Of a stretch of 64,000 nucleotides of DNA, positions 16,267 through 29,176 are shown piece after piece. The DNA lies in NCBI RefSeq assembly GCF_012927045.1, contig NZ_JABBFW010000004.1:62001-126000 (forward strand), read 5' to 3'. Both the position numbers and the translations under genes were made by a program. Below the pieces are notes generated by a model. It was given only the letters and a program-made list of their open reading frames with translations. It did not search any database and was not told the origin of the DNA. This DNA is from Azohydromonas caseinilytica. GTDB taxonomy: Bacteria; Pseudomonadota; Gammaproteobacteria; Burkholderiales; Burkholderiaceae_C. Position 1 is the stretch's first letter. The number at the start of each line of letters is the position of its first letter.

Positions 16267-18662
<2,396 letters not shown>

Positions 18663-18680
18663 GCGCACACTGCACGGAAA

Positions 18681-18703
18681 ACGGCCCGCTCGGCGGGCCG
18701 TTT
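18681..18703 (+). terminator. Intrinsic terminator after the deaminase gene
   Basis: AACGGCCCGC pairs perfectly with GCGGGCCGTT around a TCG loop, followed by TCCATTTCC. It marks the end of the purine-import transcript and isolates the metalloprotease leader downstream. Confidence 0.75.
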
Positions 18704-18786
18704 CCATTTCCGTACAGAGGCAAGGATTGCTTACAGAAAGCTGCCCTTCGCTCACTTGTTCAGGGTTGGCTTTCGCCTTCTTGCGA

Positions 18787-18900
18787 TTGGAGGCAACGGG
18801 AATACTGCCAGAGGGTCCACAGCTTGATGGACCGCAAGCAGGCTCGCCGGGATCGCGCCGGTGACGGGGTCCGGCGCAGCCTCCAACATCCCGCAGGAGG
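18787..18900 (+). ncRNA. Structured 5' leader with competing Shine-Dalgarno pairing (candidate RNA switch)
   Basis: TTGGAGGC (18787-18794) is perfectly complementary to GCCTCCAA (18879-18886), an 8-bp closing stem. Inside lie two hairpins: GGTCCA/TGGACC (18814-18819 with 18828-18833) and GCGCCGG/CCGGCGC (18855-18861 with 18871-18877). This makes a three-helix junction of about 100 nt. The 3' strand of the closing stem, GCCTCC, is also complementary to the Shine-Dalgarno GGAGG at 18896-18900. The two pairings exclude one another: closing stem formed leaves the ribosome site free, closing stem open lets GCCTCC mask it. This is the layout of a translational riboswitch or thermosensor; ligand unknown. 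Confidence 0.5.
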
Positions 18901-18904
18901 TAAC

Positions 18905-19648
18905 GTGAACAAAACCCTGATGCGCCTTGCGCTGACGGCCGCACTGGCCTTGCCAGGCTGGGCATCGGCTTACGTGGTCGGTCCCACCAGCCCCGGCAAA
19001 TGGGGCAGTCCGACGCCGGGCACCGGCGCCACCGTGACCTGGAGCCTGATGGGCAGCGGCGTGAGCTGCGCCGCGGAGTACTCGGGCTGCGCCACCACCG
19101 CGCTGAACTCGCTGCTGCCCACGGGCTTCCTCACGCAGATCCAGCTGGCCTTCGAGGCCTGGTCGTCGGTTGCCAACATCAACTTCGTGCAGGTGGCCGA
19201 CGATGGCGCGGCCTTCGACCTGCCCACCCGCTCGGGCGACATCCGCATCGGCGCCCATGCCATGGACGGCGCGCTGGGCACCCTGGCCTACAGCTACTTT
19301 CCGCCGCTCAACGGCACCAGCGGTGCCGGTGACATCTTCCTGGACACCGCCGAGAGCTGGACCATCGGCTTCGACGGCCCGGGCTACGACATCTTCCAGG
19401 TCATGGCGCACGAGATCGGCCATGCCATCGGCCTGGAACACACCAGCAACACCGACTCCCTGATGAACGCCTGGTACCAGGAGAGATTCCGCGGTCCGCA
19501 GGCCGATGACATCGAGGGCGTGCGCCACCTCTACGGCGTGCGCGCGCCCGAGCCCGTGCCCGAGCCGGCCTCGCTGCTGCTGTTTGCCGCCGGGCTGGCC
19601 GGCGTGGCCGTGACGCGGCGCAGGGGGCGCAGCCTGGTCCAGGGCTGA
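18905..19648 (+). CDS. Matrixin-type zinc metalloprotease with PEP-CTERM tail (copy 1)
   Basis: 247 residues from a GTG with AGGAGG at 18895-18900; the next ATG (18920) is too far from that site and would shorten the signal peptide. Signal peptide about residues 1-22 (cut after ASA). Zinc site HEIGHAIGLEH fits the metzincin HExxHxxGxxH pattern, and SLMNAWY is a plausible Met-turn. The C-terminus has the PEP-CTERM tripartite tail: VPEPASLLLF, a hydrophobic stretch, then TRRRGRS. It would be exported, handled by an exosortase (none in the window) and act at the cell surface or in exopolysaccharide. Tandem paralogue at 19.96 kb. Preceded by an unusual leader RNA. Confidence 0.9.
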   Translation: MNKTLMRLALTAALALPGWASAYVVGPTSPGKWGSPTPGTGATVTWSLMGSGVSCAAEYSGCATTALNSLLPTGFLTQIQLAFEAWSSVANINFVQVADDGAAFDLPTRSGDIRIGAHAMDGALGTLAYSYFPPLNGTSGAGDIFLDTAESWTIGFDGPGYDIFQVMAHEIGHAIGLEHTSNTDSLMNAWYQERFRGPQADDIEGVRHLYGVRAPEPVPEPASLLLFAAGLAGVAVTRRRGRSLVQG

Positions 19649-19653
19649 GGCCC

Positions 19654-19688
19654 ATGCCGGCCGCCGCCATGCCGGCGGCGGCCGGCAT
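19654..19688 (+). terminator. Long perfect hairpin after metalloprotease copy 1
   Basis: ATGCCGGCCGCCGCC pairs with GGCGGCGGCCGGCAT (15 bp, ATGCC loop) 6 nt after the stop codon, followed by TCCCGTTCTCC. A strong transcription barrier that separates the two metalloprotease genes. Confidence 0.7.
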
Positions 19689-19854
19689 TCCCGTTCTCCC
19701 CCATGCTCCATAGCGGGCCCGCGCGGCCGATGGCGTGAAATGCGACGCGCAAAACGCGTCCGCAACACCGATCCGTGACCGCACCCGGGTTAACAGGACT
19801 CAAACCCAGGGCAATCCGTCCGTAACAGGAGTTTGCAGTCCCGGTTTTCAAGGC

Positions 19855-19946
19855 GCACACCCTTGATCTTTCGATGGAGGGGCCTGGAAGCCGCACCAGC
19901 AGGAGTGCCGGACCGGCCCGGATGCGAACCGGGTTTTCTCGTGTGC
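19855..19946 (+). ncRNA. Possible second leader structure, upstream of metalloprotease copy 2
   Basis: The 310-nt gap between the two metalloprotease genes holds the terminator at 19654-19688, no gene, and this leader candidate. GCACAC (19855-19860) can pair with GTGTGC (19941-19946), enclosing 80 nt with a hairpin at 19861-19880 and CCCGG..CCGGG near 19917-19933. A segment around CCGCACCAGCAGG..GCCGGACC resembles CCGCAAGCAGG..GCCGGGAT in the leader of copy 1. The closing stem is only 6 bp, so the case is weaker than for copy 1. Confidence 0.3.
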
Positions 19947-19958
19947 AGGGGGAGAAGC

Positions 19959-20687
19959 ATGAAAAAGACCCTGGCCCGCGCGGTTCTGGCCGCCGCGCTC
20001 GTGACGCCGATGGCGGCATCGGCCTACGTGATCGGCAGCACCTCGCCGGGCAAGTGGGGCGATCCCACGCCGGGTACCGGGGCCACCATCACCTGGAGCC
20101 TGATGGGCGGCGGCGTGAGCTGCGCGCTGGAGTTCGCGGGTTGCCGCACCACCGCACTGAGCGCGTTCCTGCCCGGCGGGTACCTCAACGAGATCGAGCG
20201 CGCCTTTGCCGCCTGGTCGGCGGTGGCGAATCTCAGCTTCGTGCAGGTGGCCGACGATGGCGCGGCCTTCGGCGCCAACACGACTTCGGGCGACATCCGC
20301 ATCGGCGCCCATTACCTGGACGGGGCCTACAACACCCTGGCGCACGGCTACTACCCGCCGGAGAACTACGGCTCCGCGGCGGGCGACATCCATCTCGACA
20401 CCTCCGAGAACTGGACCATCGGCTATGCCGGATCGGGCATCGACATCTTCCAGGTGCTGACGCACGAGATCGGCCATGCGCTGGGCCTGAAGCATTCCGG
20501 CGACGGCGGCGCGCTGATGGCGCCGACCTACAACGAGGCCTTCGTCGGGCCGCAGGCGGACGACATCGCGGGCATCCAGTACCTTTACGGCGCGCCCCTC
20601 ACGGCGGCGGTGCCCGAGCCCTCCACGCTGGCCCTGCTGGGCCTGGGAGCGGTGGGCCTGGTGCGGCGGCGCAAGATCAAGGCCTGA
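19959..20687 (+). CDS. Matrixin-type zinc metalloprotease with PEP-CTERM tail (copy 2)
   Basis: 242 residues; ATG with GGGGGAG upstream. Signal peptide about residues 1-23 (cut after ASA), zinc motif [11 protein letters not shown] (third His as in metzincins), Met-turn candidate ALMAPTY, and a PEP-CTERM tail ([13 protein letters not shown], then VRRRKIKA). Nearly collinear with copy 1, sharing YV(V/I)G(P/S)TSPGKWG, WSLMG(S/G)GVSCA and [11 protein letters not shown], and even an identical DNA stretch there. So this is a tandem duplication. Eighteen nucleotides separate it from the next small exported protein, so the two form a likely operon. Confidence 0.9.
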
Positions 20688-24582: not shown

Positions 24583-25500
24583 TCAACCCGGAGGCGGTCG
24601 CGGCGGGCGCCGCTGCAGCAGGTGGTCCATCAGCAGCCGCGCCGGGCGCGGCAGCGCGGCGAAGTCGCGCGCGCCGATGAGCAGCTGGCGCCGCACCCAG
24701 GCGTCGCGCAGCGTGATCCGGCGCAGCCCCATGGAGCGCAAATGCGGCTGCACCGCGGCCTCGGGCAGCACCGCCACGCCCAGCCCGGCGGCCACCATCT
24801 GGCACATGGCGTCGAAGCTGCGCACCTGGATGCGCAGCTTGAGCCGCCGCCCCAGCGCGCTGGATTCCAGCTGCAGCCGCTGCGCCAGCGAGGTGCTGGA
24901 CGACAGGCTGACGAACTCGCAGTCGCAGGCTTCCACGAAATCGATGGCCTCGCGCTGCGCCAGCGGGTGCTCCTCGGGCGCGACCAGCACCAGCCGGTCC
25001 TGGCGGTAGGGCAGCGACTGCAGCCCCAGCGGCGGCGTGCGCTCGGCAAACAGGCCCAGGTCGGCGCGGCCGTCGGCCACGGCCAGCACCACGTCCGAGC
25101 TGTCGCGCTCCTCCAGCTCGATGCGGATGCCGGGGTTCTCGGCCACGAAGGACGCGACGTCGGTGGGCAGGAACTGGATGACGGCGGAGGTGTTGGCCCA
25201 CAGCCGCACCACGCCGACCACGCCGGCGGCGAAGTCGGAGAGCTCGGCGGCGAGCTGGTCCACGTCGCCCAGGATGCGCTGCGCATGCCGCTGCAGCGCC
25301 TGCCCGGCCGGGGTGAGCGTGACGCCGCGCGAATGCCGCTCCAGCAGCGGCGTGCCCACGGCGGCCTCCAGATCGGAGATGCGCTTGCTGGCCGCGCCCA
25401 CCGCCAGGTGCGCCAGCTCGGCGCCGCGGCTGATGCTGCCGCTGCGCGCGACCAGGCCGAACAGCGCCAGCGAGACGAGATCGAGTCGGTGCAGGTTCAC
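24583..25500 (-). CDS. LysR-family regulator of the CoA-transferase/lyase operon
   Basis: 305 residues from a GTG start (no ATG lies near the conserved N-terminus MNLHRLDLVSLALF). Helix-turn-helix at about residues 18-60 (GSISRGAELAHLAVGAASKRI), then an effector-binding domain with VVRLWANTSAVIQFLP. It is upstream of and co-directional with caiB rather than divergent, which is less common for this family. The palindrome at 24553-24573 in the gap is its likely target. Confidence 0.92.
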   Translation of the reverse strand: MNLHRLDLVSLALFGLVARSGSISRGAELAHLAVGAASKRISDLEAAVGTPLLERHSRGVTLTPAGQALQRHAQRILGDVDQLAAELSDFAAGVVGVVRLWANTSAVIQFLPTDVASFVAENPGIRIELEERDSSDVVLAVADGRADLGLFAERTPPLGLQSLPYRQDRLVLVAPEEHPLAQREAIDFVEACDCEFVSLSSSTSLAQRLQLESSALGRRLKLRIQVRSFDAMCQMVAAGLGVAVLPEAAVQPHLRSMGLRRITLRDAWVRRQLLIGARDFAALPRPARLLMDHLLQRRPPRPPPG

Positions 25501-28333: not shown

Positions 28334-29176
28334 TCAAACGGCCAACGCCTCCCGCAGCCTCTCCGCCTCCGCCCCGAACCCATACGCATCCATCCCCAGC
28401 GCGCCGTAGGTGTGGCTCTCATGCAGCCGCAGCGGCGCCGTGTCGCGCCCGCCCGCGCCGGCAGCCACGTACCAGGGCAGCAGGTGCTCGTCGGTGGGGT
28501 GCATCAGCGCGGCATGCGGCGCCTGGGCGCGGTAGTCGAACAGCGCGTCCCAATCCCGCGCCGCGGCGCGCTCGGCGAACCACTCGCGGAACGCCTTGCT
28601 CTCGGCCTTTTCCGGCGCGTCGATGGGCGCGCGGCCGGTGAAGGTGGACAGCAGCCGCAGGTTGTGCGTGATCGAGCCGCTGCCCATCACCAGCACGCCG
28701 CGCGCGCGCAGCGCGGCCAGGGCCTCACCGAGGGCGAACTGCTGCGCCGGCGGCGCCATCGGCATCCAGGCCAGCGGCAGCACCGGCACGTCGGCCTGCG
28801 GATAGACGTAGCGCAGCGGCGTCCAGATGCCGTGGTCCAGGCCGCCTTCGGCCAGCACATGCGCCGTCACGCCGGACTGCGCCAGCAGCGCCTTCACCTC
28901 CTCGGCCAGCGCCGGCGCGCCGGGCGCGTCGTAGCGCATCTCGTACAGCGCCTGCGGGAAGCCGCCGAAGTCGGGCACGGCCTCATGGCGCTCGGCGGCC
29001 AGCAGCACCGGCTCGCGCGTGAGCGTATGCGCCGACACGGCCAGGATCGCGCGCGGGCGGCCGAAAACGGCGTCGATGGCCGGGCCCAGGCGCTCCATGA
29101 AGGCGCCCGCCGCGCCGGGCTCCAGCGCGATCATGGGCGAGCCGTGGGACAGGAAAAGCGAAGGCAGCGTGTTCAT
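28334..29176 (-). CDS. ygiD: LigB/DODA-type extradiol dioxygenase, YgiD-like
   Basis: 280 residues from the ATG at 29176 (an ATG at 29185 would add three residues). Class III extradiol ring-cleavage fold: PSLFLSHGSPMIAL at the start, GLDHGIWTPLRYVYP, the GSGSITHNLR metal-ligand segment and PTDEHLLPWYVA near the end match the 4,5-DOPA-dioxygenase/YgiD group. It cleaves a catechol using a non-haem metal in the cytoplasm; the natural substrate of bacterial members is uncertain. It is divergent from the FtsX-type permease gene with 94 bp between. Confidence 0.9.
   Translation of the reverse strand: MNTLPSLFLSHGSPMIALEPGAAGAFMERLGPAIDAVFGRPRAILAVSAHTLTREPVLLAAERHEAVPDFGGFPQALYEMRYDAPGAPALAEEVKALLAQSGVTAHVLAEGGLDHGIWTPLRYVYPQADVPVLPLAWMPMAPPAQQFALGEALAALRARGVLVMGSGSITHNLRLLSTFTGRAPIDAPEKAESKAFREWFAERAAARDWDALFDYRAQAPHAALMHPTDEHLLPWYVAAGAGGRDTAPLRLHESHTYGALGMDAYGFGAEAERLREALAV

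Follow-up and report, generated by a model that had tools for sequence, protein, structure and literature searches.

The PEP-CTERM protease gene and its leader

The window, i.e., the whole stretch of 64,000 nucleotides of Azohydromonas caseinilytica DNA analyzed here, contains a gene for a PEP-CTERM matrixin-type metalloprotease, whose product matched the Peptidase_M10 (5.7e-28) and PEP-CTERM (1.5e-06) domains; PEP-CTERM matches numbered 50 in the genome. The open reading frame (ORF) preceding the protease gene ends at position 18662 and presumably encodes an adenosine deaminase, judging from its motifs, and another gene for a matrixin-type PEP-CTERM protease starts at 19959. After the end of the upstream ORF, a terminator-like hairpin was noticed by eye at approximately 18679–18703; a terminator scan of the region listed none, this hairpin included. 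The gap before the second protease gene (19649–19958, about 310 nt) was observed by eye to have short stretches in common with its counterpart in the congener G246 (locus L041), such as GTAACA and AGTCCCGGT.

The features of the leader are compiled in Table 1. All the elements named in an initial annotation of this DNA (the two closing-stem strands at 18787–18794 and 18879–18886, both hairpins and GGAGG at 18896–18900) were found where it had placed them, and GCCTCC is, as it had pointed out, complementary to the Shine-Dalgarno (SD) core GGAGG.

Table 1. Coordinates of the protease gene and of the observed or predicted elements of its leader
Feature	Position	Strand	Remarks
CACTTGTTCAGGGTT, upstream element	18753–18767	+	Candidate activator site, found in three of the four congeners
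CTTCTT, -35-like box	18777–18782	+	By eye from the printed sequences
TTGGAGGC, proposed 5′ strand of the closing stem	18787–18794	+	In the presumed promoter spacer; excluded from the element
AATACT, -10-like box	18801–18806	+	ATACT in 4 of 4 congeners
Predicted transcription start	18812–18814	+	Inferred from the -10-like box
Leader hairpin 1, GGTCCA/TGGACC	18814–18833	+	Modelled probability 0.97–0.99
Leader hairpin 2, GCGCCGG-TGACGGGGT-CCGGCGC	18855–18877	+	Probability ~0.2 in transcripts from 18808–18814
GCCTCCAA, proposed 3′ strand of the closing stem	18879–18886	+	
GCCTCC, anti-SD strand	18879–18884	+	4 of 4 leaders
GGAGGT, SD (GGAGG, 18896–18900)	18896–18901	+	4 of 4 leaders; pairs with 18879–18884
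PEP-CTERM matrixin-type metalloprotease gene	18905–19648	+	247 aa; GTG start at 18905

The Shine-Dalgarno sequence and its complement in congeneric leaders

A protein search of 399 genomes of the family returned matches at E up to 0.001 in 52 of them, with near-full-length homologues in eight, namely A. caseinilytica, three congeners (G052, G246 and G168) and four genomes from three other genera (G233, G339, G278 and G205). The end of the upstream gene is the same in the congeners. Next to the four homologues outside the genus (L014–L017), no leader similar to that of A. caseinilytica was seen by eye, and the GCCTCC/GGAGGT pair was absent. When positions 18780–18960 were searched as DNA against 150 genomes of the family (A. 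caseinilytica included), seven matched, and the six matches in other genomes were short (24–38 nt). The comparison of leaders was made with the four Azohydromonas genomes only.

These four leaders have diverged from one another and align poorly. Over the 200 nt upstream of the start codon, only two 6-mers are common to all of them, GCCTCC and GGAGGT, i.e., the SD and its own complement, which supports the masking of the SD proposed in the initial annotation. In each leader, GCCTCC begins 26–29 nt upstream of the start codon and 17–20 nt upstream of GGAGGT; the distance between CCTCC and GGAGG varies (11, 11, 12 and 14 nt), which indicates that the pair has been kept and the loop has not. Among 3000 sets of shuffled leaders, any shared 6-mer arose in 4.8%, and in none did one sit at a matching distance (to within 3 nt), in a control that treats the four leaders as unrelated and that is made too generous by their kinship. 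In shuffles of single leaders, CCTCC fell within the 35 nt before the SD in 7–14% of cases.

The arrangement is also rare in the genome. The pattern GCCTCC-N8-16-GGAGG-N3-6-RTGA, whose RTGA end was picked from the known starts, had a single match in A. caseinilytica, at the protease gene. Across the four genomes it had 11 matches, comprising the four orthologous leaders and seven sites elsewhere in the congener genomes, with one match for the reversed-pattern control. Among 30 of the 50 PEP-CTERM loci of the genome, with starts guessed by script that may be wrong for some of the long proteins, GCCTCC-N8-18-GGAGG preceded the start of the protease gene only. When the loci of the relatives were added in a second scan (the best 80 of 193 were kept, giving 158 loci in all), GCCTCC-N8-18-GGAGGT was confined to the four leader loci and a single site at L112, on the strand opposite its homologue. 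The pair was likewise absent from 19649–19958 and from its G246 counterpart. As a separate observation, a further two PEP-CTERM genes of this genome (L130 and L144) appeared by eye, with guessed starts, to carry short SD hairpins of different sequence, GCTCC-CAAA-GGAGC and CTCCA-GGC-TGGAG. On the strength of the two shared 6-mers and the single pattern match in the A. caseinilytica genome, a conserved SD-masking hairpin in the four Azohydromonas leaders is likely.

An N-terminal extension of the protease was also considered. Frame 0 is open over 31–41 codons in the four leaders, and an in-frame start is found at -78 in A. caseinilytica (ATG) and G246 (GTG), others in G052 (-69 and -54) and none in G168. 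This candidate was informally rejected, as G246 differs by 1 nt in its anti-SD/SD spacing and the frame is thereby broken.

Predicted folding of the leader

GCCTCC and GGAGGT pair through five Watson–Crick pairs and one G-U pair, and across the four species the calculated energy of the isolated hairpin ranged from -8.0 to -8.8 kcal/mol. In modelled transcripts from the predicted start, the probability of an unpaired SD was 0.09 in A. caseinilytica, 0.04 in G052, 0.01 in G246 and 0.08 in G168, and the local hairpin had probabilities of 0.78, 0.00, 0.99 and 0.51, respectively; the short G052 transcript favors another fold, in which the SD is masked too. Masking is hence predicted in all four leaders, by the local hairpin in three and by the other fold in G052, and the anti-SD strand lies at about the same place in each, as in an SD-sequestering hairpin. 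With the promoter spacer included, the local hairpin reached 0.26 in A. caseinilytica, 0.97 in G052, 0.98 in G246 and 0.03 in G168. For the A. caseinilytica leader, 5′ ends at 18808–18814 gave an anti-SD/SD pairing of 0.66–0.78 and an unpaired SD of 0.09–0.13; the corresponding values were 0.43 and 0.22 for a 5′ end at 18816, and 0.22 and 0.34 for one at 18795.

The consensus fold of the four leaders has 31 pairs, four of them with a two-sided change, and includes the SD hairpin; its covariation term is unfavorable (+0.81, for the whole fold and four sequences). The MAFFT alignment offset G052 by one column at GCCTCC, and the near-invariance of the SD strand prevents covariation from proving this pairing. 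The columns of hairpin 2 are paired in the consensus, two of the pairs having a two-sided change in one sequence, and the sequence of hairpin 1 differs among the congeners.

It is possible, though we doubt it, that no regulation is involved at all, the SD hairpin being incidental in a GC-rich leader, or GCCTCC being kept for another reason (e.g., as a DNA site). Occlusion of the SD is indeed frequent in the window, where four of 26 ORFs have a lower predicted SD accessibility than the protease gene and one has an equal value. Moreover, the z value for the fold of the whole segment 18780–18920 is only -1.27, 22 of 200 shuffles being at least as stable, and the leaders are kin, so that the shuffle controls overstate significance. 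Such an explanation has to contend, however, with the restriction of the 6-mers common to 200 nt of all four leaders to the SD and its own complement, as well as with a pattern that the A. caseinilytica genome contains just once.

Known RNA thermometers usually have the SD sequestered in a hairpin close to the start codon, as is predicted for the protease SD, and heat would then melt the hairpin and release the SD. We nevertheless consider this improbable, given that the SD of the four leaders remained masked in the model from 15 to 60 °C (unpaired at most 0.19) and that the six-pair core stem comprises four G-C, one A-U and one G-U pair with no mismatches.

Proposed closing stem and three-helix junction, and putative promoter

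The initial annotation had proposed, in addition, a translational riboswitch in which GCCTCC can pair with either TTGGAGGC or GGAGG, closing of the TTGGAGGC/GCCTCCAA stem completing a ligand-binding three-helix junction and leaving the SD free. What recommends this reading is the stem itself, since the best duplex between the GCCTCC region and the sequence upstream scores 8.0 in A. caseinilytica, a value that only 2.2% of the shuffled versions of the same leader attain for this 8-bp stem. In G246, seven base pairs, two of them G-U, can form at a similar place (GGGGGGC/GCCTCCT), but with a score that 40% of the shuffles also attain. The relatives, however, are without a comparable stem: their best duplexes score 5.0, 6.0 and 5.0, values attained in 82%, 40% and 82% of the shuffles, and a comparable counterpart of TTGGAGGC was sought in the three congeners and not found. 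Comparison of the leaders upheld one half of the proposed switch, the anti-SD complementarity kept in all four, and confined the other, the 8-bp closing stem, to A. caseinilytica.

Nor did closing, for the most part, free the SD in the folding model. For transcripts beginning at 18753 and 18769, the closing stem formed at 0.96 and the SD stayed paired (unpaired 0.00); with the other two 5′ ends it was partly free, at 0.30 for 18781 (closing 0.63) and 0.38 for 18787 (closing 0.94). A transcript beginning at 18781 populates both states (0.63 versus 0.24).

The three-helix layout was also counted across the window. Perfect 8-bp stems whose strands lie 60–120 nt from each other, and which contain two or more perfect 6-bp hairpins, numbered 16 on the plus strand and 21 on the minus strand (overlapping registers included). 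As 30 Markov simulations averaged 9.1 per strand, the layout alone is ordinary in this window. Adding the criterion, set after the case was seen, that the 3′ strand complements a following GGAGG or AGGAG left one instance on the plus strand, none on the minus strand and none in the 30 simulations.

The position of TTGGAGGC adds a further argument, as it lies between two promoter-like boxes. ATACT is present in all four congeners, where it anchors the comparison by construction, and no other 5-mer was found at a constant offset from it within the 75 nt upstream in the four leaders. By eye, -35-like boxes (CTTCTT, CTTCAT or CTTCTG) stand 18 nt before the second box in three leaders, and TTTCAT stands 19 nt before it in G246. 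Furthermore, CACTNNTTCAGGGTT occurs once per genome in three genomes, always before the protease gene, and is absent from G246, the reversed control of this pattern giving 0 matches. A scan of 18650–18920 with the sigma-70 consensus returned 0 promoters. Taken as sequence features, the boxes and the upstream site resemble a promoter, with a transcription start probably near 18812, and CACTTGTTCAGGGTT may be a private activator site. If the promoter reading is right, the closing strand falls outside the RNA, and TTGGAGGC would probably be left untranscribed. The relatives do not preserve the larger switch-like fold, which is probably not transcribed either; the case illustrates how a striking alternative pairing in a GC-rich leader can dissolve on comparison with relatives.

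A sigma-54 promoter was rejected, the strict consensus being missing before the protease gene; within 250 nt upstream, it was found at one of 30 PEP-CTERM genes examined (of 50). In Aquincola, one PEP-CTERM gene is reported to be RpoN-dependent (PMC9850573).

Known and new riboswitch classes

The Rfam 15 library (4227 families) gave 0 matches in the window at the gathering score, and four weak matches in 18600–19000 at E up to 10 (E 0.63–5.8) all lie outside 18780–18905. The c-di-GMP-I family (RF01051), to which the initial annotation had likened the leader, was found neither in the window at the gathering score nor among these four weak matches; c-di-GMP-II (RF01786) was covered as part of the 4227-family scan. 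A search of the whole genome with RF01051 at E up to 10, with 150 of 220 candidates scored, detected only two sites, both on contig C19. A c-di-GMP-I or other known aptamer was consequently not supported, and the real c-di-GMP-I riboswitches of this genome lie elsewhere.

The two C19 matches are at 25379–25465 (+) and 28339–28422 (-), with 82.6 and 36.8 bits, and precede two convergent genes (L001, L002, L137), one PEP-CTERM and one subtilase-like; the latter we take from its motifs to be a subtilase-like protease. One c-di-GMP-I match each was also observed in two of the three congeners.

The initial annotation had left room for a new or divergent class. Between the predicted start and GCCTCC, the longest run of invariant columns in the alignment of the four leaders is four (GGCT), and no conserved ligand-binding core was found, there being no further 6-mer common to the four congeneric leaders. 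A metabolite riboswitch is disfavored by the lack of a conserved core, and a new aptamer class appears unlikely on this comparison because no 6-mer is conserved in the genus from the predicted start to GCCTCC. The leader is, in our best reading, not a new riboswitch class. The lack of a conserved core, together with the missing Rfam match, the absence of comparable stems in the relatives, the place of TTGGAGGC between the boxes and the SD that stays paired on closing for 5′ ends at 18753 and 18769, makes the ligand-operated switch described above very improbable.

Proposed mechanism and comparison with known systems

On balance, we lean towards a 5′ untranslated region of approximately 90 nt that ends in the GCCTCC/GGAGGT hairpin and hides the protease SD. 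The putative promoter boxes would give rise to this short leader, GCCTCC would pair with GGAGGT, and the hairpin, if it forms in the cell, would lower translation of the protease; whatever opens it, be it a protein, a small RNA or the ribosome, may then set the amount of protease, with no part played by TTGGAGGC or the three-helix junction. A lineage-specific hairpin that keeps translation of the PEP-CTERM matrixin-type protease low is our best reading, held with moderate confidence, mainly because masked SDs are common in the window. Within it, we favor constitutive damping with possible control in trans. A more elaborate version, namely a genus-specific riboregulator with a fixed hairpin and a fast-evolving upstream sensing part, in which a dedicated small RNA or an RNA-binding protein does the opening in place of a metabolite, strikes us as rather unlikely. 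If the hairpin is conserved and masks the SD, a surface-sorted protease would be controlled at translation.

With regard to known systems, c-di-GMP-I riboswitches precede PEP-CTERM genes elsewhere, including one in the same genome, and a study on Methylophaga strain GP59 places c-di-GMP riboswitches at the flanks of PEP-CTERM genes (PMC12530212). The protease leader differs in that it fails the RF01051 model, the two matches of the genome being on another contig. RNA thermometers (ROSE, fourU and simple SD hairpins) likewise mask the SD next to the start codon, whereas the core stem of the protease leader is G-C rich, mismatch-free and unmelted in the model up to 60 °C. The resemblance extends to SD-sequestering leader hairpins as a general class, in which a short anti-SD strand just upstream similarly pairs with the SD; in the protease leader this pair is kept in the four congeners, and a described family to which it belongs was not found.
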